Shown here: positions 3-25,354 of the stretch, in pieces
Numbering within the stretch: position 1 is the stretch's first letter
Layout of the letters: the number at the start of each line of letters is the position of its first letter
NCBI GenBank assembly: GCA_007125545.1
Contig: SLDA01000112.1
Coordinates: forward strand, 1 to 33,024
Direction of reading: 5' to 3'
DNA: 33,024 nt
DNA from: Thermoflexales bacterium
GTDB taxonomy: Bacteria > Chloroflexota > Anaerolineae > B4-G1 > SLSP01
Made by a program: the position numbers and the translations under genes
Notes under the pieces: generated by a model
Told to the model about the DNA's origin: nothing
The model's input: the letters and a program-made list of their open reading frames with translations, nothing else
Databases searched by the model: none

Positions 3-1877
3 GAGCAACCGGCTGATCCAGACTCCCGGTACCAGGAGGCCCCGATGCTAGCAAGCCTCGTCGCCGCTGGTGCTCTACCGGTCGTCGACGAGCGTTTGCC
101 CTTGAATCCTTATGTGATCCCAGTACGCGAATCCATTGGGAAGTACGGTGGTACCATACGGCGGGGGTTCAATGGCGTCTCAGACCGCTGGGGTCCCACG
201 AAGTTCATCGACCGGTCCCTCGTCTGGCTTGACTGGGATCTGATGCTCGAGCCGCGCCTGATCGAAAGCTGGGATGTCAGCGCTGACGCGAAGGTCTATA
301 CGTTCCACCTGCGCAAAGGATTGAAGTACTCTGATGGCGTCGAAGTCACCAGCGCAGACTTCAAGTGGTTCTGGGATCATCAAGTCAACAACAGCGACTT
401 GATGTCGTCACCGTGGGGCCCCCTTTCCACCCAGGATGAAGACGGCAACCGCGTGCTCTGTGAGGCCAGTTTCCCGGATGACTATACAGTAGTGTATACC
501 TTCCAACACCCGCATCCGCTCTTTATGTTCTCCGGCATGCGGAACATCAACGGCTTCTTCACACCCGGTCATCATATGTCACAGTTCCATATGGATCTCA
601 CCGACGACGAAGGCGCCCTGGAAGCGGCCTACATCGACGCAGGATTCAACTCATGGACAGAGTACTGGGAGGATCGGAACTGGTGGTATCTGAACATCGA
701 TAAACCTATGGCCACGCCTTGGGTTGCCAAGAACACACTCGCTGAGGAAATCCAGATTATGGAGCGCAACCCTTACTACTTCGCCGTAGACCCCGAGGGC
801 AACCAGCTCCCGTATGTCGACAGAGTCTCTCACAGGCTCTTCGAGTCCAGCGAAGTCTTTAACATGTGGATCGTGAATGGTGAAATCGACTTCCAGAACC
901 GGCACGTCAACATCGCGAACTTCACCCTGTTCAAGGAGAACGAGGCCAGTGGCGACTACGAGGTCTTCGTCGGCGCCGCTTCGGGCCACAGCGCTCTCCA
1001 GCTCAACTTGGCGACCAAGGACGAGGCGCTCAACGCGTTCTTCAATGACCGGACTGTCCGCCATGCTATCTCCTATGCGATCAACCGTGATGAGGTGAAC
1101 GAACTGGTCTACAATGGACTGATGACGCCGCGGCAGTACAGTCCACTGTCGCTCTCACCCAACTACTATCCCAAGCTGTCCTATGCACACCTCGACTTTG
1201 ATCAGGCCAGGTCGCGCCAGATGCTGGACGATGCCGGCTATGACGCCAAGGACAACGAAGGTTTCCGCGTCTTCCCCGGCACAAACCGTACCATCACCTT
1301 CGTTATCGAAGGGACAGCGGAACCGGGCTCGCCCGGCGAGGATGCGGCGCAGTTGGTCGTGCGCTACCTGAACGACATCGGCATCAAAGCCACCTACCGG
1401 TATTTCGAGCGCTCGCTCTACACCGTGCACTTCCAGACCAATGAGATCGAGGCAGCTTGGTGGGGCGGAGATCGAACGGTGCTACCTCTGGCCCCCGGCG
1501 CTCCTATCTTCCGCGGCACGATGATCGACCGACCTTGGGCTGCCGGCTACGGTATCTGGTGGAACAGCCAAGGTACCGATCCCAATGCCGTCGAACCCCC
1601 GGAGGGGCACTTCATCTGGGACATCTGGGCTATCTGGACCCAAATCCAGGCGGAACCCGATCCGGATAGGCAGAACGCACTCTTTGAGGGAATCCTCGAT
1701 ATCTGGGCCGAGGAGATTCCGATGATAGGCGTGCTGGGCGAGGCCCCGGCTCTCGTGATCGTCAAGAACGGCTTCCGCAACTATGTGCAGGGCCTGCCCG
1801 TAGACGACCCCACGGGCGACGAGCACCTGCTGCAGACGGAAAGCTACTTCTGGGAGAACCCGGAACAGCACACCTAG
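3..1877 (+). CDS. ABC transporter family-5 (Opp/Dpp-type) extracellular solute-binding protein, 5'-truncated by window edge
   Basis: Frame is open upstream of the listed ATG at 45 (codons from nt 3 read EQPADPDSRYQEAPMLASLVAAGALPVVDERLP, typical of family-5 SBPs), so the true start is outside the window; contains FHLRKGLKYSDGVEVTSADFKWFWD typical of SBP_bac_5; followed by Opp permeases. Confidence 0.9.
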   Translation, partial: EQPADPDSRYQEAPMLASLVAAGALPVVDERLPLNPYVIPVRESIGKYGGTIRRGFNGVSDRWGPTKFIDRSLVWLDWDLMLEPRLIESWDVSADAKVYTFHLRKGLKYSDGVEVTSADFKWFWDHQVNNSDLMSSPWGPLSTQDEDGNRVLCEASFPDDYTVVYTFQHPHPLFMFSGMRNINGFFTPGHHMSQFHMDLTDDEGALEAAYIDAGFNSWTEYWEDRNWWYLNIDKPMATPWVAKNTLAEEIQIMERNPYYFAVDPEGNQLPYVDRVSHRLFESSEVFNMWIVNGEIDFQNRHVNIANFTLFKENEASGDYEVFVGAASGHSALQLNLATKDEALNAFFNDRTVRHAISYAINRDEVNELVYNGLMTPRQYSPLSLSPNYYPKLSYAHLDFDQARSRQMLDDAGYDAKDNEGFRVFPGTNRTITFVIEGTAEPGSPGEDAAQLVVRYLNDIGIKATYRYFERSLYTVHFQTNEIEAAWWGGDRTVLPLAPGAPIFRGTMIDRPWAAGYGIWWNSQGTDPNAVEPPEGHFIWDIWAIWTQIQAEPDPDRQNALFEGILDIWAEEIPMIGVLGEAPALVIVKNGFRNYVQGLPVDDPTGDEHLLQTESYFWENPEQHT

Positions 1878-1894
1878 TCAAAGATGAGTCAGAT

Positions 1895-1930
1895 CCTGTG
1901 ATCGGTACTCTGTAGAGTACCGATCACAGG
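1895..1930 (+). promoter_or_regulatory. Perfect 16-bp stem / 4-nt loop hairpin between SBP and permease genes
   Basis: CCTGTGATCGGTACTC-TGTA-GAGTACCGATCACAGG; arms are exact reverse complements; no T-tract follows, so more like an mRNA processing/stabilising or attenuating stem-loop than a classic terminator. Confidence 0.75.
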
Positions 1931-2069
1931 AACGCACAAGGCATGAGGAACAAGGAATGCGGGATATGGTTTCAAGCCACCCCTTATCCCCGATTCCTTG
2001 GTCCTTAAGCCTTAGCCATTAACGTGAGAGGGCTTAAAAGTTAAGGCCCATAAATGTAGGAGACCGATT

Positions 2070-3059
2070 ATGGCCAAGTACATTCTAAGACGCGTACTGC
2101 TGATGATCCCGACCTTGATCGTCATCTCTATGATCTCGTTTGCGGTCATACAACTGCCCCCCGGTGACTACTTGACGTCCTACGTCGCGAGCCTGCGGCA
2201 GATGGGCGATGACGTAGATGAAACGGAGCTCGAGATGCTGCGCCAGCGCTACGGGCTCGGGCAGCCAACCTACGTGCAGTACTACAAGTGGGTCTCCGGC
2301 ATCATCCTGCGGGGGGACTGGGGACAGTCGATGGAATGGCGCAAGCCGGTGAAGGATCTGATCTGGGAGCGGATGGCCCTGACGGTATTTCTGTCTTCGG
2401 TCTCGATTATGATAAGCTGGTTTGTAGCCATACCGATCGGGGTCTACTCGGCTACACATCAATATAGCCCTCCGGATTACGTCTTTTCAGGTATGAGTTT
2501 CGTCGGCGCCGGGATGCCGGGGTTTATGCTGGCTCTGGTGGTGATGTGGATCGCAATGAGGCGTTTCGGCTTAAATGTCGGCGGTCTCTTCTCACCAGAG
2601 TACATAACGGCGCCGTGGAGTGTCGACAAGTTTGTCGACTTACTCAAGCACATCTGGATACCCGTGATCATCATCGCGCTGGGTAGTACGGCGGGCAGTA
2701 TTCGCACAACCCGGGCCAACGTTCTCGATGAGCTAAGCAAACCCTACGTGGAAACCGCACGGGCAAAGGGCCTAAAGGAGCGCAAGCTTACCTGGAAGTA
2801 CCCGGTACGCGTGGCCATGAACCCGTTCTTCAGTACCGTGGGGTGGACCTTGGCCAGTCTGATCTCAGGGGCGACACTGGTCGACGTCGTGCTGAGCCTG
2901 CAGACCACCGGGCCGATGATGCTGCGAGCCCTGACCTCACAGGACATGTATCTGGCCGGCAGCTTCCTGCTTTTGCTCAGCTCTTTAACCGTCATTGGCA
3001 CATTGATCTCTGACGTTCTGCTCGCCTGGGTCGATCCGCGTATCCGGCTGGAGGGATAA
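2070..3059 (+). CDS. ABC transporter permease, OppB/DppB-type
   Basis: MAKYILRRVLLMIPTLIVISMISFAVIQLPPGDY start and ...RTTRANVLDELSKPYVETARAKGLKERKLTWKYPVRVAMNP (EAA-type loop) are characteristic; multiple TM segments. Confidence 0.93.
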   Translation: MAKYILRRVLLMIPTLIVISMISFAVIQLPPGDYLTSYVASLRQMGDDVDETELEMLRQRYGLGQPTYVQYYKWVSGIILRGDWGQSMEWRKPVKDLIWERMALTVFLSSVSIMISWFVAIPIGVYSATHQYSPPDYVFSGMSFVGAGMPGFMLALVVMWIAMRRFGLNVGGLFSPEYITAPWSVDKFVDLLKHIWIPVIIIALGSTAGSIRTTRANVLDELSKPYVETARAKGLKERKLTWKYPVRVAMNPFFSTVGWTLASLISGATLVDVVLSLQTTGPMMLRALTSQDMYLAGSFLLLLSSLTVIGTLISDVLLAWVDPRIRLEG

Positions 3060-3061
3060 CA

Positions 3062-4291
3062 ATGACAACCACCAAACAAGACGATTCCACACCGCTACCT
3101 GAAGGAACACCGGTTCCCGGTGCTCCTGGAGTATTGGGAGCAGTAGACGCACCTATTTCCGAGGATCTGCTTGACGATATCCCGGTTGTTGATGAGGAGG
3201 AGGAAAGACTTTACGTTGCGAGTCAATGGCAGTTGATGTGGTGGAAATTCCGCAGACACAAGCTGGCGTTGATCGGAGCAGCGATCCTGGCGGTGCTCTA
3301 TACGATTGCGATCTTCGCGGAATTTGTCGCGCCCTACGATCCGAGTGCCTTCTTCGTACGCTACAAGATGGCTCCGCCCACACGGATCCACATCTTCCAC
3401 GAGGGTCAGTTACGCGCCCCCTTTGTCTACCATCAAGTGCGCGATCGCGATCCCGACACACTGCGCGACATCTACACGGTGGACCGCTCGATCACCTACC
3501 CCGTGAACTTCTTTGTCCGTGGCGTTCCTTACAAGTTCTGGGGGCTCGTGGACACCGATATCCACCTGTTTGGTTTAACGGTGGACAAAGACGAGCAAGC
3601 GGTCTTCCTGCTGGGCGCCGACCGGATGGGCCGGGACCTGTTCACACGAATATGCTATGGGGCCCGTATCTCCCTGTCCATCGGCCTGATCGGCGTCTTC
3701 CTGAGCCTGATTTTTGGTGTGACACTGGGCGGTATATCGGGCTACTATGGGGGGCGAGTGGACACGGTCATTCAGCGTGTCATCGAGTTCATTCAGACGA
3801 TACCTAGCATCCCGCTGTGGATGGCTCTGAGTGCGGGATTGCCGGCTGACTGGCCGGTTGTCCGCCTTTACTTCGGCATCACGATTATTCTGTCATTGAT
3901 CGGATGGACAGGAATGGCACGCGTGGTCCGCGGCCGATTTCTACAACTGCGCGAGGAAGATTTTGTGCTGGCGGCGCGCCTGAATGGATCCAGCGAGATT
4001 CGCATTATCTTGCGCCATATGGCCCCATCCTTCTTCAGCCACATCATCGCCAGTCTGACCATCGCCATTCCCGCCACCATTCTGGGCGAAACAGGGCTCA
4101 GCTTCATCGGCTTGGGTCTGCGCGCCCCGGCGATCAGTTGGGGGGTGCTGTTGCAAGAAGCCCAGAATGTGCGTTCACTGGCCTTTGCGCCGTGGGTATT
4201 TGCTCCTGCGGTTGCCGTCGTGTTGACTGTCTTCGCCTTTAACTTTCTGGGTGACGGACTACGCGATGCAGCGGATCCCTATGCTAGATAG
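3062..4291 (+). CDS. ABC transporter permease, OppC/DppC-type with long N-terminal extension and extracytoplasmic insert
   Basis: LLGADRMGRDLFTRICYGARISLSIGLIGVFLSLIFGVTLGGISGYYGG and DFVLAARLNGSSEIRIILRHMAPSF; RBS-like ggaggg just upstream; starts 2 nt after the oppB-like stop. Confidence 0.93.
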   Translation: MTTTKQDDSTPLPEGTPVPGAPGVLGAVDAPISEDLLDDIPVVDEEEERLYVASQWQLMWWKFRRHKLALIGAAILAVLYTIAIFAEFVAPYDPSAFFVRYKMAPPTRIHIFHEGQLRAPFVYHQVRDRDPDTLRDIYTVDRSITYPVNFFVRGVPYKFWGLVDTDIHLFGLTVDKDEQAVFLLGADRMGRDLFTRICYGARISLSIGLIGVFLSLIFGVTLGGISGYYGGRVDTVIQRVIEFIQTIPSIPLWMALSAGLPADWPVVRLYFGITIILSLIGWTGMARVVRGRFLQLREEDFVLAARLNGSSEIRIILRHMAPSFFSHIIASLTIAIPATILGETGLSFIGLGLRAPAISWGVLLQEAQNVRSLAFAPWVFAPAVAVVLTVFAFNFLGDGLRDAADPYAR

Positions 4292-4393
4292 AGTCTAAGT
4301 TGAGAGCGATGAGCATGAAGGTTGCCTTGAAGGGGCATAAGAGAGTCGGACTTTCAACTTGTGACTTCTGACTCACCTGAAGGAGAGTGCCAA

Positions 4394-5431
4394 GTGGACC
4401 ATCGAAAACCGCTGATTGAGGTCAAGAACCTGAAAACCCACTTCTTCCTTGACGAAGGTACTGTACGGGCTGTTGATGGTGCAGATTTCAACATCGCCCA
4501 GGGAGAGACGCTGGGCATTGTAGGAGAGAGCGGATGCGGCAAGAGCGTCACAGCTCGCTCGATTATGCAGATCGTGACCAGGCCGGGCAAGATCGTGGAC
4601 GGACAGATCCTCTATCACCGCCACCGCTGGAACCATGGTTCCAGCGCCGGGCAAGAGATCGTCGATCTAACCGCGCTTCATCCGCAGAGCGACGAGATGC
4701 GCTATATTCGCGGCAGCGAGATCGCAATGGTGTTCCAGGAGCCGATGACATCGCTGAGCCCCGTACACACAGTCGGGAACCAGATTGCCGAGGTCATCAT
4801 CCTGCATCAAAAGGTCTCGAAGGAAGAGGCCTGGCAGAAAGCGATTGAAATGCTCGCTTTCGTGGGCATGCCGCTCCCGAATCGCACCATCGAACAATAT
4901 TCGTACCAGTTGAGCGGCGGCATGCGCCAGCGGGCCATGATCGCTATGGCGCTCTCCTGCAACCCGGCCCTTCTGATCGCCGACGAACCTACCACCGCGC
5001 TTGACGTGACCACTGAAGCCCAGATTCTGCGCCTGATGCGCCGGCTCCAAGATGAGTTGGGCATGGCGATTATGTTTATTACCCACAACCTCGGCGTAGT
5101 AGCCCAGATGGCGGAGAACGTCGTCGTTATGTATATGGGAAAGGTTGTGGAGCTGGCGTCGGTCGAGACGATCTTCCACGCGCCCGCGCACCCCTATACG
5201 CGGGCACTGCTACAATCGATCCCAAGACTGGGGCACAAAACGATGCAACGGCGGCGGTTAGCTTCGATCAAAGGCATGGTGCCCGATTCCTTCGCCCTAC
5301 CCCAAGGTTGCGCGTTCCATCCACGGTGCAGCGCGATGAAGTATGGTGTCTGCGACCAGGAGGAACCGCCTATGATCGAAGTTGAGCCCGGTCATAAGGT
5401 GGCCTGCATAAGGTACGGGGAAATCACGTGA
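4394..5431 (+). CDS. ABC transporter ATP-binding protein, OppD/DppD-type
   Basis: Walker A GESGCGKS, signature LSGGMRQR, Walker B LLIADEPT, C-terminal CAFHPRCSAMKYGVCDQEEP oligopeptide C-terminal motif. Track ORF opens at 4361; GTG 4394 preceded by GAAGGAGAG is the likelier start. Confidence 0.92.
   Translation: MDHRKPLIEVKNLKTHFFLDEGTVRAVDGADFNIAQGETLGIVGESGCGKSVTARSIMQIVTRPGKIVDGQILYHRHRWNHGSSAGQEIVDLTALHPQSDEMRYIRGSEIAMVFQEPMTSLSPVHTVGNQIAEVIILHQKVSKEEAWQKAIEMLAFVGMPLPNRTIEQYSYQLSGGMRQRAMIAMALSCNPALLIADEPTTALDVTTEAQILRLMRRLQDELGMAIMFITHNLGVVAQMAENVVVMYMGKVVELASVETIFHAPAHPYTRALLQSIPRLGHKTMQRRRLASIKGMVPDSFALPQGCAFHPRCSAMKYGVCDQEEPPMIEVEPGHKVACIRYGEIT
4625..4646. repeat. 22-nt perfect palindrome inside the OppD-like CDS
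   Basis: CGCTGGAACCATGGTTCCAGCG equals its own reverse complement. Confidence 0.8.
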
Positions 5432-5510: not shown

Positions 5511-7259
5511 ATGAGTGTCCTCCTGATCCAGCCGCCCCATTGGCTCCCGACAATGCCGCACCTGGCCTTGCCGACCTTAACCGCTCACTTGCGTGCCTAT
5601 GGGATCGAAACTGAGCAGCTCGACTTAAACATCGAAACCTTCGATACGCTACTGACGCAGCCCTACCTCGAAGGCGCGCTCGCACGCGTGCGGGAACGCC
5701 CACCACGCAACGTGCCACCGACCGCGATTGCCAGGATACTCGCACAGGCGCCACAAGTGATTGGTCGGGTCGAACCGGCCAAGGACGCGCTGCGCGATAG
5801 CCGGTTTTTCGATCCACGTACCAGCAGGCAGGCCTTTCTGACCCTCGTCCAGGGGCTGGAGCTGGCCTCTCTCCCCTTCCATCCGGCAGCCGTGCAGTTC
5901 ACCACCTTCACGCCACCCGTGCCTGAGGACAGCAGCGCCGCGCTACTCGACGTCATAGCTGATTCCGAGCGCAATCCATTTCTGACACTGTTCCGCGACA
6001 CCTTCTTGCCTCGCATCCTCGAATCCCAACCCGACCTGATCGGTATCTCCATTCCCACTTTGGGGCAGATGCTGGGCGCGATGACTCTCGGCTATCTGAT
6101 CAAGGAAGCTGATCTTCGCTGTCATGTGACCATCGGGGGGCCGCACGTCTCGATGCTGCGAGAGCTTCTTCCACGCACGCCCAAGCTTTTCGATCTCTTC
6201 GACAGCGCGGTGGTCTTCAGCGGAGAAGGGGCGCTGCTGCGTTTGGCAGAGCTGGTGGACAGCGCGAGCGTTCCTCAGCCCGACCTTTCACAGATCCCGA
6301 ACCTAATCTACCGTGACAAGGGAATCGTTCGCAGCACCCCGCTGGAGGCATTACCGGAGCCCCGCCCATGCGAGAGGCCGAACTTCGGCGCACCGGACTT
6401 TGACGGACTCCCCCTACACAGCTACCTGAGCCCCAGTCCGGTCCTACCCTTGCTCAGTTCCCACGGCTGCTACTACGGAAAGTGTGCGTTCTGCAATGTG
6501 GGCTACGGCGGACCTGATCGGTTCCACCCACTCGACCCGGAGTTGGTGGTCGAGCAGATGCTGTTCCTGCACCGGAAGCACGGTGCCCGCCACTTCTTCT
6601 TTGCCGACGAGGCTCTAACACCGCGGACCTTGCGCATTCTATCGGATAGGCTGGCGAATGTGGAGCCGACGCTCCACTGGTGCGGCTGTGCACGGTTCGA
6701 TCCCGGGCTGACTCCTGACCTGTTGAATCACATGTCTCAGGGTGGTTGTCGTATGCTTCTCTTCGGGCTGGAAACAGCAGCAGGGACGACGATCGAGCGG
6801 ATGCACAAGCACACGCAGCCGGCCACGATGAGCCGCATTTTGCGTGACAGCGTTAAGGCAGGTATCTGGAATCACACCTTCTTTTTCTTCGGCTTTCCAG
6901 GAGAGACGATGGATGCCGCGCAGGAGACGGTGAACTTCGTGTACGCCCACCAGGATGCTATCCACTCAGCCTCACCTGGCGCCTTTCTCTTGGAACGCTA
7001 TGCGCCCGCGGAACGGGAGCCGGAGGTGTACGGCATCAGCCGGGTGATGGCAGACCCGAAGCGGGATCTGGCGATCTATTTTGATTATGAAGTGGTCACG
7101 GGCCTCAATGAGGCGATGGCGGAGCGCCTGGTTTCACTGCTCGTCGACGTTCTACCGGAGAAAGCGTTCGGACAATATTACATCACAGACGTCTACCGTT
7201 TGCTCTACGCCAGCAATCTTTGGGAAAACGGACAGCCCCTCCCACTGTGGTTGGCTTGA
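5511..7259 (+). CDS. Radical SAM protein with N-terminal B12-binding-like domain
   Basis: MSVLLIQPPHW start, DLIGISIPTLGQMLGAMTLGYLIKEADLRCHVTIGGPHVSML (B12-binding-like Rossmann), SSHGCYYGKCAFCN cysteine cluster (CX4CX2C), HFFFADEALTPRTLRILSDRL, GCRMLLFGLETAAGTTIERMHK typical of B12-radical SAM proteins. Confidence 0.88.
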   Translation: MSVLLIQPPHWLPTMPHLALPTLTAHLRAYGIETEQLDLNIETFDTLLTQPYLEGALARVRERPPRNVPPTAIARILAQAPQVIGRVEPAKDALRDSRFFDPRTSRQAFLTLVQGLELASLPFHPAAVQFTTFTPPVPEDSSAALLDVIADSERNPFLTLFRDTFLPRILESQPDLIGISIPTLGQMLGAMTLGYLIKEADLRCHVTIGGPHVSMLRELLPRTPKLFDLFDSAVVFSGEGALLRLAELVDSASVPQPDLSQIPNLIYRDKGIVRSTPLEALPEPRPCERPNFGAPDFDGLPLHSYLSPSPVLPLLSSHGCYYGKCAFCNVGYGGPDRFHPLDPELVVEQMLFLHRKHGARHFFFADEALTPRTLRILSDRLANVEPTLHWCGCARFDPGLTPDLLNHMSQGGCRMLLFGLETAAGTTIERMHKHTQPATMSRILRDSVKAGIWNHTFFFFGFPGETMDAAQETVNFVYAHQDAIHSASPGAFLLERYAPAEREPEVYGISRVMADPKRDLAIYFDYEVVTGLNEAMAERLVSLLVDVLPEKAFGQYYITDVYRLLYASNLWENGQPLPLWLA

Positions 7260-7303: not shown

Positions 7304-7783
7304 ATGAAACGCTGGGCGCAGCAAATACTCGTATTAGCGGCGTGGTTGACGAACTGTGTCCTGGGATTGTGGGTGATGATCAGCCTGCAGCAGACCTTGC
7401 TCGCGACCCTCGCGGTCTGGTATGTACAGGACTCGAATGTGCGTGGATGGCGAGCACGCTTCTATGATCGCGCCTACTTCGTTATCGCGGGACTCCTCTA
7501 TCTGATCTTCATCTTCGTCAATGACGGCTATCTGCGGGATGGGCTGAAAAAAGGTGATACCTTCAGGCGATTCGTGAAGATCACCGGTATCGGGTTGCTG
7601 ATTCTGTTCCCTGCAGATCTGCTGAACCTGCTGGTCCAGAGCTCGGCGCGGGGAGCAGGATTGGGACAATACAGCCTTATACTAGTCGCCCTGGAATTGC
7701 TCGCAGGCACTGCTCTATTAGCCTATGCCATCCACCACAATCCCAAACGCAAAGCCAAACTCGCAGTAGAGGAGAATGCCTGA
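7304..7783 (+). CDS. Small predicted integral membrane protein (about 4 TM)
   Basis: Four hydrophobic segments (ILVLAAWLTNCVLGLWVMISL, AYFVIAGLLYLIFIFV, ITGIGLLILFPADLLNLLV, LILVALELLAGTALLAYAI); GAGGTGAG upstream of ATG. Confidence 0.7.
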   Translation: MKRWAQQILVLAAWLTNCVLGLWVMISLQQTLLATLAVWYVQDSNVRGWRARFYDRAYFVIAGLLYLIFIFVNDGYLRDGLKKGDTFRRFVKITGIGLLILFPADLLNLLVQSSARGAGLGQYSLILVALELLAGTALLAYAIHHNPKRKAKLAVEENA

Positions 7784-7785
7784 CT

Positions 7786-10431
7786 ATGACCTATGAGCGA
7801 ATCGACTATAGCCTCCACGACGGCTACATCCACACCTGGCTGGTCACTGGGCCGCAACACAGCTTTCTTGAGTTCGGACCCGACCTACAAACACCTTCCC
7901 GGCGTCTGGAGGCTCTGGCCCAGCGAGCAGAGACTACGAGCCGCGATCCGGACTTCACGACCCAACCGGTAGAACGGGCGACTGCGTCCGACGGAGAGGT
8001 CCATATCGGTGATTACAGTGGTCAATGGGATCTGTTCCACTGCATGGAAGATCACTTTCTCGATCTTTCCGATGCTACCCAGAAGGGAAGTCTGCGCGCC
8101 TGGGCTTATACCGGACTCGAGAGTCCTGCACCACAACGTGTATCACTTACCCTCACGACGACGGACTTCGCCGACGTATGGATAAACGGCGAGCACGTCC
8201 ATCGCCAATTGCGAACGGTTTCCGCCACACTGCGGCCTCCAACCAAACCGGTGACCGGCACCTTCCAGGTGATGCTGAATGAGGGCACGAACGACGTTGT
8301 CGTGAGGTTTGAGACGATAACGCCCGGCTCTACCCCTTTCGTCCTGGCACTCCGTGCGGCGGCCGACCAGGACTTGTCCGTCGCTCTACCGACACTCATC
8401 TCGCGAGTTGATCGCCGCCGACACCTCGAAGCCGTGTTCCAAGCGGCATATATCCAGCAATATGTCTTCACTCAGTATGACAAGGTTGCGGTCAACTGGC
8501 CCGACAAGGGCGAATCGGCCGTTCCCGCTGAAGCAACAGACACAGAAGAAGCAGACACAAAGACTGCGGAGGGAAAGATAACCATCCGCGTACAGACCCC
8601 GGCGGGCAGGGTTTATGGAGAAGCAGAGCGTAAGGGCGGCGCAAGCCAAACCGCTGAGATGGGATTCACCTACAAGTACCCGAACGGCCAGCTGGAAGCG
8701 CTTCTAATTCCGCCGCCAGAGGAGTACTATACCGGCGACATGCGAGTCAGTCGCACCCTTCGTTTTTGGGGGCTGGACAACGAGCCATATACTGAGACTC
8801 CTAAGGGCTCCTTCCCCGAGCGACGCTCAGAGGCATTGCTGAGCGCCGCGCGATGTGAAGCCAACATCTATTCGGAAATCGCGAAGATGGCGGTGGGCTG
8901 GTGGTCACGCCTCGAGCTGCCACTGATCCTGGAGACGGCCCGGCGGGTGCAGGATCAGAACGTCGCTCCCGACACACCGTCGCTTCTCGGGCTCATCGGC
9001 ATGCTGATGCGCTTCGGCGAGGAGCAGGGGTTCCCGGCAGACCTGCGGCAGCCTATAGCCGCCGCGATTGCGAACGCCAGATACGGTGAGCCGGGAACTG
9101 TTGCCGGCGAACTGGAGAGCCGTGCGCTCTTGAGCGCCGTCTGCGAGATCCTGGGAGGTCAACTCTTGCCGGACGTCACTTTCACGGCTTCAGGTGAGTC
9201 GGGACAATGGCACCAGGAAGAGGGTGAAAGACGGGCGTTAGCCTGGATACACGCACGAGCTACGCGCGGTTTTAGCGCCCCAGGGTCGGACACGGTCTAC
9301 GCAGAAACGATATTGGCGCTTGCCCATCTTATCGACTTCGCCGGATCCGACACCTTATGGGAAATGGGTGCAGTGCTGCTGGACAAGATCCTGTTCCTGC
9401 TCGCCACCAACTGCTATAAGGGCGTGTTCGGATCGGCGCGCGGATCGACCACGACACGCGGGGTACTAGGTGGGTATCTTGAGGCCACGTCTGGGATCAC
9501 CAAACTGATGTGGGGTACGGGCGTGTATAATATGGACTTAGCGGCGCCAGTTAGTCTCGCGCTGCTGCAGAATTACGAGTTGCCGGTGATGCTCCAGACC
9601 ATCGCTACAGACGTCCCAGAAGCTGTCTGGAGCCAGGAGCACCACGATCCCAAGGAAGCCGGCGCCACGGCCAACGGTATCAGCATCGTCGCCTACAGGA
9701 CACCAGACTTTATGCTCTCCGCGACCCAGGATGCCTATCCCGGACAAGCGGGAAGTGACGAACACGCGTGGCAGGCCACCCTCGCTCCGGGCGCGACGGT
9801 CTTCGTCAACCATCCGGTTTGTGCCGGGCTCAGCGATGCACAGCGCCCAAACTTCTGGCGCGGGAATGGGGCGCGGCCCCGGGTAGTACAATGGCAAGAC
9901 GCACTCATCGCGCTCTATGTCCTGCCTGCCGGGGATTGGATGGGCTTCACGCACGCCTACTTTCCGATTCACGCTTTCGATGAACACGTCCTACGCGGGA
10001 GCTGGGCTTTTGCGCGCAAGGGCAACGGCTACATTGCGCTCACCGCCAGCGAAGGGCTCAGCTTGACACGCACCGGACACAGCGCCTACCGCGAGCTTCG
10101 CTCGTCCGGAAGCCAGAACGTCTGGTTGTGCCAGATGGGACGGACCGCCCTGGATGGTGATTTCGCCGCATTCCAAGATCGTGTGTTGGCTCTGCCCCTG
10201 ACCTATGCTGCGTCCGATACTAACACCCTCCCAGGGGTTCGCTGGACAACACTGCGAAGCGACGAGTTACAGCTCGACTGGGCCGGGCCTTTCCTCATGA
10301 ACGGCGAGATCACGCCGGTCGCCGGTGATCACCATATCGCGAATCCTTACTGCGTCGCGCCATTCCCCGCAGACCTGCTGGATATTCACTACGAGGGCAC
10401 CGTGATGCGCCTCAGTTTCGAAAAGCAATAA
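7786..10431 (+). CDS. Large uncharacterised protein, paralogous to 15094-16968; predicted carbohydrate-active (helical + beta-sandwich) candidate
   Basis: Long ORF in operon context, RBS GAGGAGA before ATG, starts 3 nt after upstream stop; shares ATSG-TKLMWGTGVYN, YRTPDFMLSATQDAYPGQ, WQATLAPGATVFVNHP, RPNFWRGNG, HAYFPIHAFDE, ARKGNGYIAL segments with 15094-16968. Confidence 0.7.
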   Translation: MTYERIDYSLHDGYIHTWLVTGPQHSFLEFGPDLQTPSRRLEALAQRAETTSRDPDFTTQPVERATASDGEVHIGDYSGQWDLFHCMEDHFLDLSDATQKGSLRAWAYTGLESPAPQRVSLTLTTTDFADVWINGEHVHRQLRTVSATLRPPTKPVTGTFQVMLNEGTNDVVVRFETITPGSTPFVLALRAAADQDLSVALPTLISRVDRRRHLEAVFQAAYIQQYVFTQYDKVAVNWPDKGESAVPAEATDTEEADTKTAEGKITIRVQTPAGRVYGEAERKGGASQTAEMGFTYKYPNGQLEALLIPPPEEYYTGDMRVSRTLRFWGLDNEPYTETPKGSFPERRSEALLSAARCEANIYSEIAKMAVGWWSRLELPLILETARRVQDQNVAPDTPSLLGLIGMLMRFGEEQGFPADLRQPIAAAIANARYGEPGTVAGELESRALLSAVCEILGGQLLPDVTFTASGESGQWHQEEGERRALAWIHARATRGFSAPGSDTVYAETILALAHLIDFAGSDTLWEMGAVLLDKILFLLATNCYKGVFGSARGSTTTRGVLGGYLEATSGITKLMWGTGVYNMDLAAPVSLALLQNYELPVMLQTIATDVPEAVWSQEHHDPKEAGATANGISIVAYRTPDFMLSATQDAYPGQAGSDEHAWQATLAPGATVFVNHPVCAGLSDAQRPNFWRGNGARPRVVQWQDALIALYVLPAGDWMGFTHAYFPIHAFDEHVLRGSWAFARKGNGYIALTASEGLSLTRTGHSAYRELRSSGSQNVWLCQMGRTALDGDFAAFQDRVLALPLTYAASDTNTLPGVRWTTLRSDELQLDWAGPFLMNGEITPVAGDHHIANPYCVAPFPADLLDIHYEGTVMRLSFEKQ

Positions 10432-10453: not shown

Positions 10454-12754
10454 ATGAACACACTAACCTTCGAGAAGATCTCGTGCTATGAGCGACAAGC
10501 AGAACCGATATCCGTTAGTATTCCTTTCGCCTCAGGGCAGCTTGCCGGCGCAGAACAGCTCATCCTACGCGATGGAGATACCCCTATCCCATCGCAGGCT
10601 CGGGTGCTGGCTTCGTGGCCCGATGGCAGCATCAAGTGGCTGCTGGTTCACGCCCAGGCAGACCTACCGGGTAACCAGGAGAAGGTTCTGACCTTTGAGA
10701 TCTCGGATACACCGACAGCGCTCTCGGTCTCCGACCGGGTCACAGTCACGGAGACGGAGAATGGACTTCACGTCGACACCGGTCCGCTGGCCTTCTTGGT
10801 GCCGGCGACCGGATTTCTGCCACTGCGTGATGTACAGCTCGGCGGGAAGGCGCTGTGGCATGCCACACCCTTTGATGGCTTCACACTTCGCTATGACGGT
10901 GTCGTCGTCTCAACCGCTATCGGCGCAGTCACGCTGACCGTCGAGGAAGCCGGGCCGCTCAAGGCCGTCATTCTCGTCGACGGGAAGCACCGTCGGCCTG
11001 ATGGCAGCGGATACCTTGACTTTCACGGACGCGTCACGGCCTACGCCGGCAAACCTTATGTTGAGGTGGAGCACCAGTTCATTCACAGGGAAGAGGAAGT
11101 GGAGTTGGCGCTTGAATCGCTGACACTCCGCTTCCGTCCTAGAGCCGATCCGGCGGAGCAGGCTGCACCCCTGCCGACGTCGAGCCCTCAGTTGGCACTA
11201 GGCCAGGGATACTACCGGACGTTGATCCAGCAATCCGAGGGATCGCCGTTGGGTATGGTCATCGACACAGAGACCCTGCTCTATCAAGCTAACGAACACT
11301 TCATCGACAGTTTCTACGGCGATTTTTGGGCTGACTGGCGCGATGCAACCGGCGGGCTAGCGCTCTCTCTCTACCAGGCACACCAGAACTTTCCGAAAGG
11401 GTTGCTCGTGTCACCGGACGGGATCGACGCGCAGCTCTACCCCGAGACAGTAGCGCCCGCGCTACTGCTGCGGGGCATGGCCAAGACTCACCGGCTGCTG
11501 CTCCATTTCCACGAGGGTGAGCCTGCCGCGAACGAGGATGAAGGGTTGCTGGACTTGGTCAGCACGCGAAGCTTGCAGTTCCAACTTCCTGACCATCCGG
11601 CTCTCTCGCGGGAGTGGTTCCGCGCGAACAACCCCTGGCTCGAGGACTTCTTTCCAGCCCAAATACCCGATCGTCTGATCACCTTCCTCAACAGGCTCCA
11701 CGACGGACGCCCGGAGGCATTGGGCATGTTTCACTTTGGCGACGCCCCGGACGCCGGTTACACCAATCAGGGACGCGGGCAGGGCCATAGTGTTTGGGTC
11801 AATAATGAATACGACCGGCCTCACGCTTGCGCCCTCTACTACGCACTCACGGGTCAGCGGCGGGTACTCGACTCGGCCCTGGTGAGTGCCCGGCATTGGC
11901 TGGACGTCGACTTCTGTCACTACGATCCCGACCCCCTGATCGATGGCGGGTTGAAGATCCACACCCGTTACCACGTCACCGGCGGCGTCACCCCCTCCCA
12001 CGAGTGGACGGAGGGGTTCCTCGACTATTACTTCTTGACCGGGCGCACCGAAGCCCTGAACGCGGCGCGGTCGGTGGCGGAGAACATATTACGTCACCTC
12101 GAACGCCCCACGATGCAGACACCCGGCGCGACGTCGGTACGGGAGGGAGGCTGGGCGCTACGGGCGCTTGTGGGCATGTGGATTGGGACCGGAGAGGAGC
12201 GCTGGCGCGAAGCCGCGCGCCGGCTAATCACGATGTACCTGGACTGGTTCGACGAGTTTGGAGCACTGCTGGCGCCCTACACCAGCCACAGCATGCCGCG
12301 CGTCCCGTTTATGATCTCGCTGACCGTTAACTCGTTTGCGCGCTATCTCTTGATCGAGCCGGATGGCGAGTTGGCGGAGCGGGTCAAGGGCTTGATCATC
12401 GGGACGGTAGACGATATGCTCGCCCATTGTATGGGCCCCGACGGCATCGCCTATTACAAAGAGCTACCCTCGCTGCGACGCACGGCACCTACTTACCACC
12501 TGTTGGAAGCTCTGACCTACACCTACCGTGCGACCGGTGACGAGCACTACCTCCAAGTAGCAACACGCCAATTCGCGGCAATGAGCCAAGAGATAGGTAC
12601 ACGTGCGCGCCCCAAGTTCGCTGACGACAGCGGCGCCGTCATCGATGGAGAGGGGGGCGGGCGCATCTTCGCGGACAAATACACCTCCCTCCTGCTCTAC
12701 GCAGGCGCGGCAACCGCGGCGGGGATGTTGGATTGGTACGAGTACCCCTACTAA
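10454..12754 (+). CDS. PcRGLX / PL26-like (exo-rhamnogalacturonan lyase-related) protein
   Basis: N-terminus EPISVSIPFASGQL...LRDGDTPIPSQARVLASWPDGSIKWLLVHAQ resembles the PcRGLX-like N-terminal RIFT-barrel domain; HVTGGVTPSHEWTEGFLDYYFLTGRTEAL resembles the (alpha/alpha) toroid part; RBS AAGGAGA upstream. Confidence 0.72.
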   Translation: MNTLTFEKISCYERQAEPISVSIPFASGQLAGAEQLILRDGDTPIPSQARVLASWPDGSIKWLLVHAQADLPGNQEKVLTFEISDTPTALSVSDRVTVTETENGLHVDTGPLAFLVPATGFLPLRDVQLGGKALWHATPFDGFTLRYDGVVVSTAIGAVTLTVEEAGPLKAVILVDGKHRRPDGSGYLDFHGRVTAYAGKPYVEVEHQFIHREEEVELALESLTLRFRPRADPAEQAAPLPTSSPQLALGQGYYRTLIQQSEGSPLGMVIDTETLLYQANEHFIDSFYGDFWADWRDATGGLALSLYQAHQNFPKGLLVSPDGIDAQLYPETVAPALLLRGMAKTHRLLLHFHEGEPAANEDEGLLDLVSTRSLQFQLPDHPALSREWFRANNPWLEDFFPAQIPDRLITFLNRLHDGRPEALGMFHFGDAPDAGYTNQGRGQGHSVWVNNEYDRPHACALYYALTGQRRVLDSALVSARHWLDVDFCHYDPDPLIDGGLKIHTRYHVTGGVTPSHEWTEGFLDYYFLTGRTEALNAARSVAENILRHLERPTMQTPGATSVREGGWALRALVGMWIGTGEERWREAARRLITMYLDWFDEFGALLAPYTSHSMPRVPFMISLTVNSFARYLLIEPDGELAERVKGLIIGTVDDMLAHCMGPDGIAYYKELPSLRRTAPTYHLLEALTYTYRATGDEHYLQVATRQFAAMSQEIGTRARPKFADDSGAVIDGEGGGRIFADKYTSLLLYAGAATAAGMLDWYEYPY

Positions 12755-12805
12755 ATTCCATTCTTAGTCCTGCGCCCGACCAAAGGTTGGATCATGGGAG
12801 GCACT

Positions 12806-13960
12806 ATGGCAAAGACAGGTGTGGGAGCACGATGGCAGTCCGAATTGAGCATCTATAAAGACCCGGTGAGTGGTGCGACGGTACACCAGCTTACCGGCTA
12901 CAAGGGGCACAGCAGTCACTTCTACTTCACCTACCCCTGCTGGTATGACAACGGCCGTAAGATCGTCTTTTACTCCGATCGCGAAGACCGCACAAATCTG
13001 TTTGGAGTAGACCTGCTCAACGGAGAGATCACGCAGCTCACAGATTTCGCTCCTGGAGTCAAGGCTGGAGGATTGAGCAAGAACCCTGTGCGTGAAGAGG
13101 TCTACCTATCCGTGGACGGCACTGTGACGGCGCTGGATCTTGCGACGTTGGAGACGCGAGCCATCTACACACGCCCCGAAGGATATGTCGGTGGCAGCTC
13201 GAACGCGACCGCCGACGGCAACTATATCTGCGTCGGACAGTACAAAGACCTCTCCGACCAGTTTATGATCGATCTGGGGCACGGCTACGTCGGCTTTCGC
13301 GAGATCTGGGAGGCACACCCACACACAACCCTTTACAAGATCCCCGTGGATGGCGGGGATCCGGAGTTGATCTACGAAGAGGACTACTGGCTGGGCCATT
13401 TCAACTGCTCCAGTAAGCACCCGAATGTGATGACCTTCTGCCACGAAGGGCCCTGGCACCTGGTGGAGAACCGCATCTGGGGTCTCGATCTCAATAGCGG
13501 GGAGAGATGGGCAATTCGTCCCAACGCGCCTGACGAAGCTATCGGACACGAGTACTGGATGCAGGATGGCGAGCATATTGGGTACCACGGGAAGACGCCC
13601 CAGGGCCCGGTCTACGGCGCAATTCGCTACGACAATACCAACCAGACCGAAGCGCCATTCGAGGGGCACTGCTGGCACTTCCACAGCTACATGCTGGATT
13701 TAGTGGTGGGGGATGGTGATGCCAAGGATCCCTACCTGTTGCTCTGGCGCTTCAAAGATGGCGCCTTCGAGGGACCGAAAGTGCTGACCTGGCATCGTGG
13801 TTCCTTCCACACGCAACGGCTACACTTGCACCCTTGTGTGAACGGCGACGGGACCCAAATCATCTACACCGCAGATCCACAGGGTTACGGGCAAGTCTAC
13901 GCGGTGGACGTACCCGCCTTTGAATCGCTACCCGACCTCGAGGACGTGAAGAAAGGCTGA
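12806..13960 (+). CDS. Oligogalacturonate lyase-like (PL22) beta-propeller protein
   Basis: TYPCWYDNGRKIVFYSDREDRTNLFGVDLLNGEITQLTDF, MTFCHEGPWHLVENRIWGLDL, TQRLHLHPCVNGDGTQIIYTADPQGYGQVY; Q-x-x-H-x-H metal-site pattern retained. ATG 12806 has GGGAGG upstream (track ORF opens at 12794). Confidence 0.82.
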   Translation: MAKTGVGARWQSELSIYKDPVSGATVHQLTGYKGHSSHFYFTYPCWYDNGRKIVFYSDREDRTNLFGVDLLNGEITQLTDFAPGVKAGGLSKNPVREEVYLSVDGTVTALDLATLETRAIYTRPEGYVGGSSNATADGNYICVGQYKDLSDQFMIDLGHGYVGFREIWEAHPHTTLYKIPVDGGDPELIYEEDYWLGHFNCSSKHPNVMTFCHEGPWHLVENRIWGLDLNSGERWAIRPNAPDEAIGHEYWMQDGEHIGYHGKTPQGPVYGAIRYDNTNQTEAPFEGHCWHFHSYMLDLVVGDGDAKDPYLLLWRFKDGAFEGPKVLTWHRGSFHTQRLHLHPCVNGDGTQIIYTADPQGYGQVYAVDVPAFESLPDLEDVKKG

Positions 13961-14067
13961 GATGCCGGATAACAGAGCCTGGAGTCGAGGTAGATACATA
14001 CACAACGAGGAAGCACCGCTCAGGCCCTTCCTCAGTGACGGGTTGGAATAGCCAAAGGATTCGACGC

Positions 14068-15024
14068 ATGATGCTATACAGCGACTCATCGAGACGTGGA
14101 CGACCCTTTGCCAAGGACCCTGCGGTCGTGCGCTTCAAAGGGCAGGCTTGGCTCTACTACTCACTACCGCCCTTCGGCAGTGGGCAGACGCACGATGGCG
14201 TCGACGGTCAGGCACCCTGGCTCGCTCACAGCGGATGGGCTATCGGCATCGCCCGCAGTGACGACCTGCAAACGTGGATGAAGTGCGGTCAGATCGTCGC
14301 TGACGCCGAATACGAGGACCGGGGGCTCTGTGCACCCGCCGCCTTCGTGCTCGATGACAGAATTCACCTCTTCTACCAGACTTATGGGAATGGTCCCAAG
14401 GATGCCATCTGCCACGCCGTATCCGACGATGGGATCTCATTTGTGCGCAACCCCACTAACCCCATCTTCGCGCCCACCGGTGACTGGACTTGCGGTCGAG
14501 CCATCGACGCCGACGTAGTCGTCGACGGCGACCGGCTGCTGCTCTACTTCGCAACCCGCGACCCGACTATGACGATCCAAATGCTGGGCTTAGCCGCAGC
14601 GCCTCTGAATTCCGATTTCGGTCGGGATAAGTGGACCCAGCTTTGTGACGAGCCTATCTTGAAGCCGGAGCTATCCTGGGAGCAGGAGTGCATCGAAGCA
14701 CCCGCCGTATGCAAGCACGGCGACCGGTTCTTTATGTGGTACGGCGGAGCATACAACAATATGCCGCAGCAGATCGGGTGCGCAGTGAGCAAGGACGGCA
14801 TTCGCTGGGAGCGGCTCTTTGAGAAACCTTTCCTGCCGAACGGCGAACCCGGAAGCTGGAATGCGTGCGAGTCGGGACACCCTTACATCTTCGAGGACCA
14901 CGATGGTCAGACCTACCTCTTCTACCAGGGCAACAATGACCTGGGGGAGACGTGGTATCTCTCGATGCGGCGCATCCTCTGGCGCGAAGGCTGGCCGCTC
15001 CTTGGCGACAGTGAACCAGACTAA
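14068..15024 (+). CDS. Five-bladed beta-propeller glycosidase-like protein (GH43/GH32/GH117 clan-like)
   Basis: AKDPAVVRFKGQAWLYYS, GWAIGIARSDDLQTWMKCGQIV, CAPAAFVLDDRIHLFYQTYG, CIEAPAVCKHGDRFFMWYGG, ESGHPYIFEDHDGQTYLFYQGN repeated propeller-blade motifs. Track ORF opens at GTG 14035; ATG 14068 with AAAGGA upstream preferred. Confidence 0.72.
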   Translation: MMLYSDSSRRGRPFAKDPAVVRFKGQAWLYYSLPPFGSGQTHDGVDGQAPWLAHSGWAIGIARSDDLQTWMKCGQIVADAEYEDRGLCAPAAFVLDDRIHLFYQTYGNGPKDAICHAVSDDGISFVRNPTNPIFAPTGDWTCGRAIDADVVVDGDRLLLYFATRDPTMTIQMLGLAAAPLNSDFGRDKWTQLCDEPILKPELSWEQECIEAPAVCKHGDRFFMWYGGAYNNMPQQIGCAVSKDGIRWERLFEKPFLPNGEPGSWNACESGHPYIFEDHDGQTYLFYQGNNDLGETWYLSMRRILWREGWPLLGDSEPD

Positions 15025-16971: not shown

Positions 16972-18336
16972 ATGTCCGCTGTTAAAGTCACGATTGTAGG
17001 AGCTGGAAGCGTCGTCTTCTCTTTGGGCTTGGTCAAGGATCTATGTCTGACTGAAGGGCTGAAGGGCAGCAGCGTGCACTTCATGGATATCAACGAAGAA
17101 CGACTGGACGTCGTTTACCGGCTGGCTCAGCGCTACGCCGAGGACTTGGGCGCGAACCTCACCTTTGCACGCTCGCTCGACCGGAGTGAAGCCCTGGCGG
17201 ATGCGGATTTCGTCATCAACACGGCGACGGTCACGCACAACGAGTATTTCATGAAACGCCGGCGGGAGTTGACCGCCGAACACGGCTATTTCTATGCTCG
17301 CACGGGGATGCCCGAATACCACAATCTGCAGATGATGCTGGATGTGGCGCGTGACGTGGAGGCGATCAGCCCGAACGCCTGGATCTTGCTGGCGGGAAAC
17401 CCCGTCTTCGACGGCACGACATTGATGGGCCGCGAGACAGACGTGAAGGTCTGCGGCCTCTGCCACGGACATTACGGCTATCGGGGTGTCGCGCGCCTGA
17501 TTGGACTAGAACCGGAAAAAGTCACATGGCAGGCGCCGGGTCTGAATCACAACATCTGGCTGACGCATTTCCACTACGAAGGACAGGATGCGTATCCGAT
17601 CCTCGATCAGTGGATCGCAGAGAACATCGAGCAGTACTGGGACGACCACAAGGAGAGCGGAGTGCCGGCGCAATGGTCGCGCTCCGCCATCCACCAGTAC
17701 AGAATGTTCGGCCTCTTGCCCATCGGGGATACTCCGCGACGGGGCGGATGGTGGTATCACACAGACCTCGAAACACGAGTTCGCTGGTATGGCGCCGGTG
17801 GCGGGGGAGACACGCCCGAGGGGCGCGACCGGATTCTGAAGGGTAAAGAGGAGAAATATGCCCAGATGAAAGCGGCAGCGTACGATGCTGAGGTGCGCCC
17901 CATCACGCTTTTCGGTGACATCAAGACGACGGAGCAGCACGTGCCCATCATTGATGCCCTTGTGAACGACAACGAGTACCGGGCGCAGGTCAATGTACTG
18001 AACCACGGGGCCTTGCCGGGCCTGCCGGATGATGTGGCTGTGGAGGTGCCCGCCGTCGTGAACCGGATGGGAATTCAGCCGCTCCGCGTCGAACCGCTGC
18101 CGGCCAAGGTTATGCTCGAATGCATCTACCCCGAGTGGCTGAGGATGGAGCAGGGATTAGAGGCATTGCTGACGGGCGATAAGTCAATGATGTTGTACGG
18201 AATCCTCCAGAGTCACCAAACAAGGTCGTACGAGCAAGCTATGGCGATGCTGGAAGCCCTCTTCGATATCGAGCCGAATGAACCAATGGCTTACATCGAG
18301 GATATTCACGATCACTATCATTGGCCACAATTCTAG
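16972..18336 (+). CDS. GH4 family NAD/Mn-dependent glycosidase, alpha-galacturonidase (LplD)-like candidate
   Basis: VTIVGAGSVVFSLGLVKDL Rossmann start, ADFVINTATV, ILLAGNPVFDGTTLM, CGLCHGHYGYRG, APGLNHNIWLTHF are GH4 hallmarks; pectin context and Lpl-like transporter nearby. Confidence 0.87.
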   Translation: MSAVKVTIVGAGSVVFSLGLVKDLCLTEGLKGSSVHFMDINEERLDVVYRLAQRYAEDLGANLTFARSLDRSEALADADFVINTATVTHNEYFMKRRRELTAEHGYFYARTGMPEYHNLQMMLDVARDVEAISPNAWILLAGNPVFDGTTLMGRETDVKVCGLCHGHYGYRGVARLIGLEPEKVTWQAPGLNHNIWLTHFHYEGQDAYPILDQWIAENIEQYWDDHKESGVPAQWSRSAIHQYRMFGLLPIGDTPRRGGWWYHTDLETRVRWYGAGGGGDTPEGRDRILKGKEEKYAQMKAAAYDAEVRPITLFGDIKTTEQHVPIIDALVNDNEYRAQVNVLNHGALPGLPDDVAVEVPAVVNRMGIQPLRVEPLPAKVMLECIYPEWLRMEQGLEALLTGDKSMMLYGILQSHQTRSYEQAMAMLEALFDIEPNEPMAYIEDIHDHYHWPQF

Positions 18337-25127: not shown

Positions 25128-25179
25128 TCCTGTTGAAACAAGGAGATGACGTTCCATGCGTTTCGACAGGACCGGGGAA

Positions 25180-25207
25180 TTGCTCGCGAGCAAAGTTACG
25201 GTATAAT
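25180..25207 (+). promoter_or_regulatory. Predicted sigma70-type promoter for tRNA-Gln
   Basis: TTGCTC - 16 nt - TATAAT (consensus -10 at 25202-25207), 11 nt before the tRNA 5' end. Confidence 0.65.
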
Positions 25208-25218
25208 ACGGAGTGTGT

Positions 25219-25290
25219 TGGGGCGTGGCCAAGTGGTAAGGCAACGGACTTTGAATCCGTGTATCGCACGTTCGAATCGTGCCGCCCCAG
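25219..25290 (+). tRNA. tRNA-Gln (anticodon TTG)
   Basis: TGGGGCG acceptor pairs with CGCCCCA; ACGGA-CTTTGAA-TCCGT anticodon arm; GCACG-TTCGAAT-CGTGC T arm; discriminator G; CCA not encoded. Confidence 0.95.
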
Positions 25291-25293
25291 CCT

Positions 25294-25325
25294 GCAACAG
25301 CCCGGGTCCTCGCCCGGGCTGTTGC
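25294..25325 (+). terminator. Rho-independent terminator downstream of tRNA-Gln
   Basis: GCAACAGCCCGGG-TCCTCG-CCCGGGCTGTTGC 13-bp perfect stem followed by TTTAT. Confidence 0.75.
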
Positions 25326-25354
25326 TTTATCCCCTCCAGGAAGGAGCGAGCTCA

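Follow-up and report, generated by a model that had tools for sequence, protein, structure and literature searches.

The 881-amino-acid protein P0001 is encoded at positions 7786 to 10431 of the forward strand in the window, the whole 33,024-nucleotide stretch of Thermoflexales bacterium DNA that was analyzed. It belongs to a family of proteins with a polysaccharide-lyase fold, centered on Chloroflexota, and has lost three motifs that most of the family retains. With moderate confidence, we interpret P0001 from its sequence as a cytosolic pseudo-lyase, derived from lyase-fold enzymes, which would bind imported pectin oligosaccharides or a partner without performing lyase chemistry. If this is correct, Anaerolineae Chloroflexota carry an unassigned lyase-fold family that degrades acidic plant oligosaccharides in the cytosol. 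The family would then be a natural set of cases in which active sites were lost independently, from which catalytic residues could be predicted ahead of any assay. It would also provide a clean setting in which to study the roles of dead carbohydrate enzymes beside live ones, and would caution against annotating all large operon proteins of this kind as enzymes.

The P0001 gene and its operon

The open reading frame was recovered exactly as the preliminary description had given it, with 881 codons and an ATG start. The flanking genes and tight spacing reported there were also confirmed: the stop codon of a gene for a 159-amino-acid protein with four predicted membrane segments (7304..7783, +) lies 2 nt before P0001, and a PcRGLX-like gene begins 22 nt after it. 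The ribosome-binding site, described as clear, was confirmed in part, in that a GAGGAG stands upstream of the ATG but at a longish spacing of 12 nt. Full-length homologues with 36-53% identity are present in many genomes, and close pairs of relatives gave dN/dS values of 0.06-0.17; the frame is therefore not a chance one.

P0001 sits in a pectin/rhamnogalacturonan operon, in keeping with the pectin operon of the preliminary description. An importer of the SBP_bac_5 plus OppB/OppC/OppD type (45..5431, +) lies in the same operon and is a conserved neighbor of the family, and relatives of the 159-amino-acid membrane protein recur immediately upstream of family genes. Downstream are a PcRGLX-like protein that has a RIFT-barrel domain, a central beta domain, and a GH127-like catalytic match (10454..12754, +; Pfam PF21345/PF19501), a PL22 oligogalacturonate lyase-like protein (12794..13960, +), a GH43/GH130-like enzyme (14035..15024, +), the 627-amino-acid paralogue P0002 (15085..16968, +), which has intact motifs and no N-terminal jelly roll, and a GH4 enzyme (16972..18336, +). 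Further along, the cluster includes another PL22 together with an MR/MLE protein and an esterase. Between the importer and the membrane protein lies the gene for a B12-binding radical SAM protein (5511-7259, +), and 18 of 66 loci have a protein of this type beside the family gene. The 676-amino-acid protein P0003 (18651-20681, +) contains EYNSPTY and GPHSRAY stretches and had no Pfam, NCBIfam, or PHROG match; a relative 69% identical to it adjoins a family member at another locus (L065:3029), and P0003 is possibly another lyase-like protein.

A simple hydrophobicity test found no signal-peptide-like N-terminus in P0001, P0002, the PcRGLX-like protein, PL22, or the GH43/130-like enzyme, while the hydrophobic start of the GH4 enzyme is one that we take to be its NAD-binding strand. 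The earlier suggestion of a surface enzyme was thus not supported for P0001. Because such N-termini are absent and an Opp-type importer is present, the operon fits cytosolic processing of imported oligosaccharides.

Fold and toroid motifs of P0001 and P0002

P0001 itself had no match in Pfam, NCBIfam, PHROG, or PDB sequence searches (0 Pfam families at E<=1, and PDB profile searches likewise negative), and two family alignments used as queries gave no significant match in the same four collections. For PL8, PL12, PL21, PL26, GH105, and GH88, the families named in the preliminary description, neither a Pfam model nor a solved member matched in sequence. The idea of a new carbohydrate-active family holds at the family level, since none of Pfam, NCBIfam, PHROGs, and PDB describes it, and by these searches the family appears to be new.

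An AlphaFold model of P0001 built from 69 sequences had a mean pLDDT of 90.5 and a pTM of 0.91. Secondary structure assigned by DSSP divides it into an N-terminal part (residues 1-340; 7786..8805, +), an alpha/alpha toroid-like helical domain (residues 341-610; 8806..9615, +), and a C-terminal beta domain (residues 611-881; 9616..10428, +). The N-terminal part consists of a GH2 galactose-binding-type jelly roll (about residues 70-203) followed by an Ig-like beta domain. It matched GH2 beta-glucuronidases in Foldseek (E 1e-6 to 2e-8), and 8 of 30 family members weakly matched Pfam PF22666 (GH2 galactose-binding-like). The beta-rich segment previously likened to a jelly roll (residues 119-141) falls inside this domain by both Foldseek and PF22666, and the order of helical region and C-terminal beta block was as described, with helices at 343-607 and strands at 614-877. 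The likeness of P0001 to GH2 is limited to the N-terminal beta domains: residues 343-607 are helical, and the TIM-barrel catalytic domain of GH2 is missing.

P0002, modeled separately (pLDDT 84.2), has helices at residues 16-288 and thereafter mainly strands, so that both models show the toroid-then-antiparallel-beta order of alpha/alpha-toroid lyases. The 41 best PDB matches of P0002 in Foldseek were all toroid lyases or dermatan sulfate epimerase, spanning PL8, PL15, PL33, PL35, xanthan lyase, and DS-epimerase. The best came from the PL8 hyaluronate/chondroitin AC/xanthan lyases (2brv, E 5.5e-6; 1n7q; 1cb8), and 6hzn, 8khw, and 8r71, from PL33/PL35/PL39 and DS-epimerase 1, which share the fold class, were also among them. 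The PL15 structures 3afl/3a0o were matched by both proteins, P0001 hitting the alginate exolyase Atu3025 with an E of 3e-7. Whole-chain TM-scores in these comparisons were 0.2-0.34, below 0.5, with an rmsd of about 13-25 Å, and we therefore claim only the fold class and not close superposition. The Foldseek comparison proposed in the preliminary description thus revealed a fold resembling acid-polysaccharide lyases, at low TM.

At the sequence level, profile comparison showed no relationship to the heparinases. P0001 did not match the Pfam heparinase II/III-like models (PF16889/PF07940), and hhalign against heparinase II/III-like proteins of the same class gave E values of 0.1-0.4, with column-shuffled profiles scoring equally high. 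One such alignment (E 0.37) set ENH and SNxY opposite the heparinase-family NNH and SxxY; because of this E value and the equal scores of shuffled columns, we did not count it as homology.

Three toroid motifs, ENH, SNxY, and HGRxY, are common to most family members, as is an RxDCxDF element. Among 81 sequences, 53 carry all three motifs, 25 carry none, and 3 carry one or two, so that presence is all-or-nothing in 78. P0001 has lost all three. At the first site (family ENHxxxxH) it reads LESRALLSA (residues 443-451; 9112..9138, +), at the second (ExxSNxY) APGSDTVY with Val504 in place of Tyr (residues 498-505; 9277..9300, +), and at the third (HGRxY) RGSTT (residues 552-556; 9439..9453, +). 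By alignment, the replacements are N445S, H446R, H451A, N502D, Y504V, H552R, R554S, and Y556T. The family-invariant beta-domain residues H660, Q663, R699, Q702, and H723 are all kept. In P0002, the motif residues N125, H126, N182, Y184, H232, R234, and Y236 are intact, as is H412, the counterpart of P0001 H660, and N125, Y184, and H412 are invariant across motif-bearing members.

Toroid lyases use a catalytic set of Asn/His, Tyr, and a beta-domain His, with an Asn-to-Tyr spacing of 52-59 residues in PL8/12/15/17/21/33/35/39; the Asn-Tyr-His set has been described for PL33 and PL35, where mutants show the Tyr to be essential for activity (PMC12088678, PMC11848413). The Tyr is likewise essential in PL15 (PMC11921355). 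The motif-bearing members resemble PL15 (Atu3025, exoheparinase) and the PL12/PL21 heparinases in domain order and in having Asn-His at a helix start, a Tyr 53-59 residues on, and a putative beta-domain His; the family has no significant sequence or profile similarity to them, and P0001 differs further in its additional GH2-type N-terminus and in lacking the Asn, His, and Tyr. The distance from N125 to Y184 in P0002 is 59 residues, the same as in PL8, and PL8 also shares with P0002 an Arg about 50 residues past the Tyr. In contrast to PL8, P0002 has Gly175 where PL8 has a His 9 residues before the Tyr, and no PL8 Pfam model matched. Relative to PL33/PL35/PL39 and DS-epimerase 1, there is no sequence similarity to solved chains, and the Tyr-to-His distance of P0002 is 228 residues, longer than in known lyase families and compared with roughly 130-166 in this group. 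We infer that H412, and H660 with it, corresponds to the lyase beta-domain His.

On this basis, the proposed catalytic set of P0002 would comprise toroid N125/H126, Y184 as acid/base, the R234/Y236 pair, and beta-domain H412. P0001 should not carry out beta-elimination, because all of these except the beta-domain His are replaced: neither the Asn nor the Tyr of toroid lyases is present (N445S, H446R, Y504V), with H660 retained. The earlier proposal of an active lyase or hydrolase probably fails for P0001, in which toroid residues that are invariant in most of the family and outline its presumptive active site are replaced.

Distribution of the family and repeated loss of the motifs

The family is almost confined to Chloroflexota, mainly Anaerolineae. 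Nine stretches of P0001's own genome match it, two of them within the P0002 ORF, and among 60 related genomes 16 had family members, as did 75 of 396 genomes of the same class. Scanning one genome from each species gave 80 loci. Almost all are recorded as Chloroflexota (Anaerolineae, Caldilineaceae, Thermoflexus, Litorilinea, and Candidatus Roseilinea), with one record labeled Bacillota and one labeled only "bacterium". In a 301-genome sample of the phylum, where few candidates per genome were scored, only 2 genomes besides the window's own had matches, both to divergent motif-less members. The viral contigs searched contained no relative.

Several members depart from the common pattern. A third, divergent motif-bearing clade comprises L056:7317-9905, L071:5792-8347, and L121:16348-18957, and its gene in L056 stands directly upstream of the P0001 orthologue. 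In the genome of P0001 itself, a very divergent paralogue (36%; L005, C316:6778-9276) has the HGRxY loop wholly deleted. At L080:10001-14497 there are two tandem family genes, the second reading SNCT rather than SNCY; this may represent an early stage in losing the active site.

Family trees were computed with the motif columns removed. The motif-bearing state is probably ancestral, because P0002 and the outgroup clades retain the motifs. A tree test rejected the hypothesis that motif-less members arose only once (p-AU 5e-13), and at least 5 motif-label changes are required by the well-supported branches. P0001 forms a motif-less clade with two congeneric orthologues. A well-supported set unites this clade with motif-bearing genes found at the same position of the operon in neighboring genera.

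Constraint was relaxed in the toroid and not elsewhere. At matched beta-domain divergence, toroid identity was 0.569 in motif-bearing pairs vs 0.400 in motif-less pairs, and the N-terminal part showed no such drop. Motif-less members keep 93% of family-invariant positions in the beta domain, 84% in the N-terminal part, and 66% in the toroid. Their pairs gave a dN/dS of 0.13-0.17, a ratio taken from relatives because P0001's own dS is saturated. This pattern is as would be expected if one toroid activity was lost while the remainder of the protein stayed functional. A pseudogene reading of P0001 was rejected, the ORF being intact and the dN/dS of motif-less relatives as given.

These data also bear on whether the motifs are catalytic at all. 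If they were not, P0001 could be as active as the rest of the family, and the low TM-scores of the lyase fold similarity leave some room for this. We nonetheless hold it very unlikely, since the motifs were lost in concert, all or none, in several lineages, relaxation was restricted to the toroid, and the motif spacing agrees with that of known lyases.

Possible roles of P0001 and other motif-less members

We propose that uronic-acid oligosaccharides enter through the SBP5/Opp transporter and are most likely cleaved through beta-elimination by motif-bearing members, P0002 (encoded four genes downstream) among them. The jelly roll and beta domain of P0001 would then be held by selection, most plausibly to bind an oligosaccharide or a protein partner, and P0001 may be a subunit for binding, scaffolding, or regulation. 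Candidate partners are the adjacent four-segment membrane protein and the motif-bearing paralogue. Of 15 checked genomes with a motif-less member, 9 also have a motif-bearing one; none was found in the other 6, although these are incomplete MAGs. A strict model, with every motif-less member dependent on a motif-bearing one, fails in those 6, which speaks against an active partner being obligatory.

The main rival to a binding role is that P0001 is still an enzyme, with an active site rewired around D502, R552, and T555 together with beta-domain H660, R699, Q702, and H723, and acting on another substrate or by another chemistry. The beta-domain polar residues are invariant even among motif-less members, in which purifying selection continues, and the P0001 clade shares D502 and R552-G-x-T555. 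That clade, however, amounts to only three sequences, separate motif-less clades differ from one another in the residues that replace the motifs, and the toroid constraint is relaxed overall. We consider a rewired site rather unlikely and retain the binding role as the better account of P0001.

A further reading is that motif-less members, including P0001, sense sugars or serve as adaptors and so provide input to signal-transduction proteins, as in some pseudoenzymes that became ligand-binding regulators. A soluble LacI-sensor/histidine kinase/receiver/AraC hybrid regulator and/or a stand-alone receiver stands just upstream in 7 of 21 motif-less loci compared with 0 of 45 motif-bearing loci (Fisher p 1.5e-4, loci counted without correction for relatedness); one of these loci (L070) shows the receiver only, since its contig begins there. 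However, the seven loci represent about two lineages, the cassette is absent from P0001's own clade, and the HisKA/receiver gene of the window (25133-27619) lies 15 kb off and is differently built. Because of the few lineages and the absence from the P0001 clade, a regulatory role is only a lead, and for P0001 and the motif-less members at large we judge it quite unlikely. In a broader form, which we rate as doubtful but slightly less so, the lyase-fold lineage would repeatedly have become noncatalytic sugar-binding regulators, some of them wired to a soluble LacI-sensor/histidine-kinase/AraC hybrid, with the dead lyase reporting imported acidic oligosaccharides.

Soluble hybrids that combine LacI-type sugar-binding, histidine kinase, receiver, and AraC domains were found at L078:5568-9224, L120:5232-8825, and L133:8-3304, the full domain scan covering L078 and L120. 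All three have no predicted membrane segment and stand directly upstream of motif-less members, followed by a stand-alone receiver domain.
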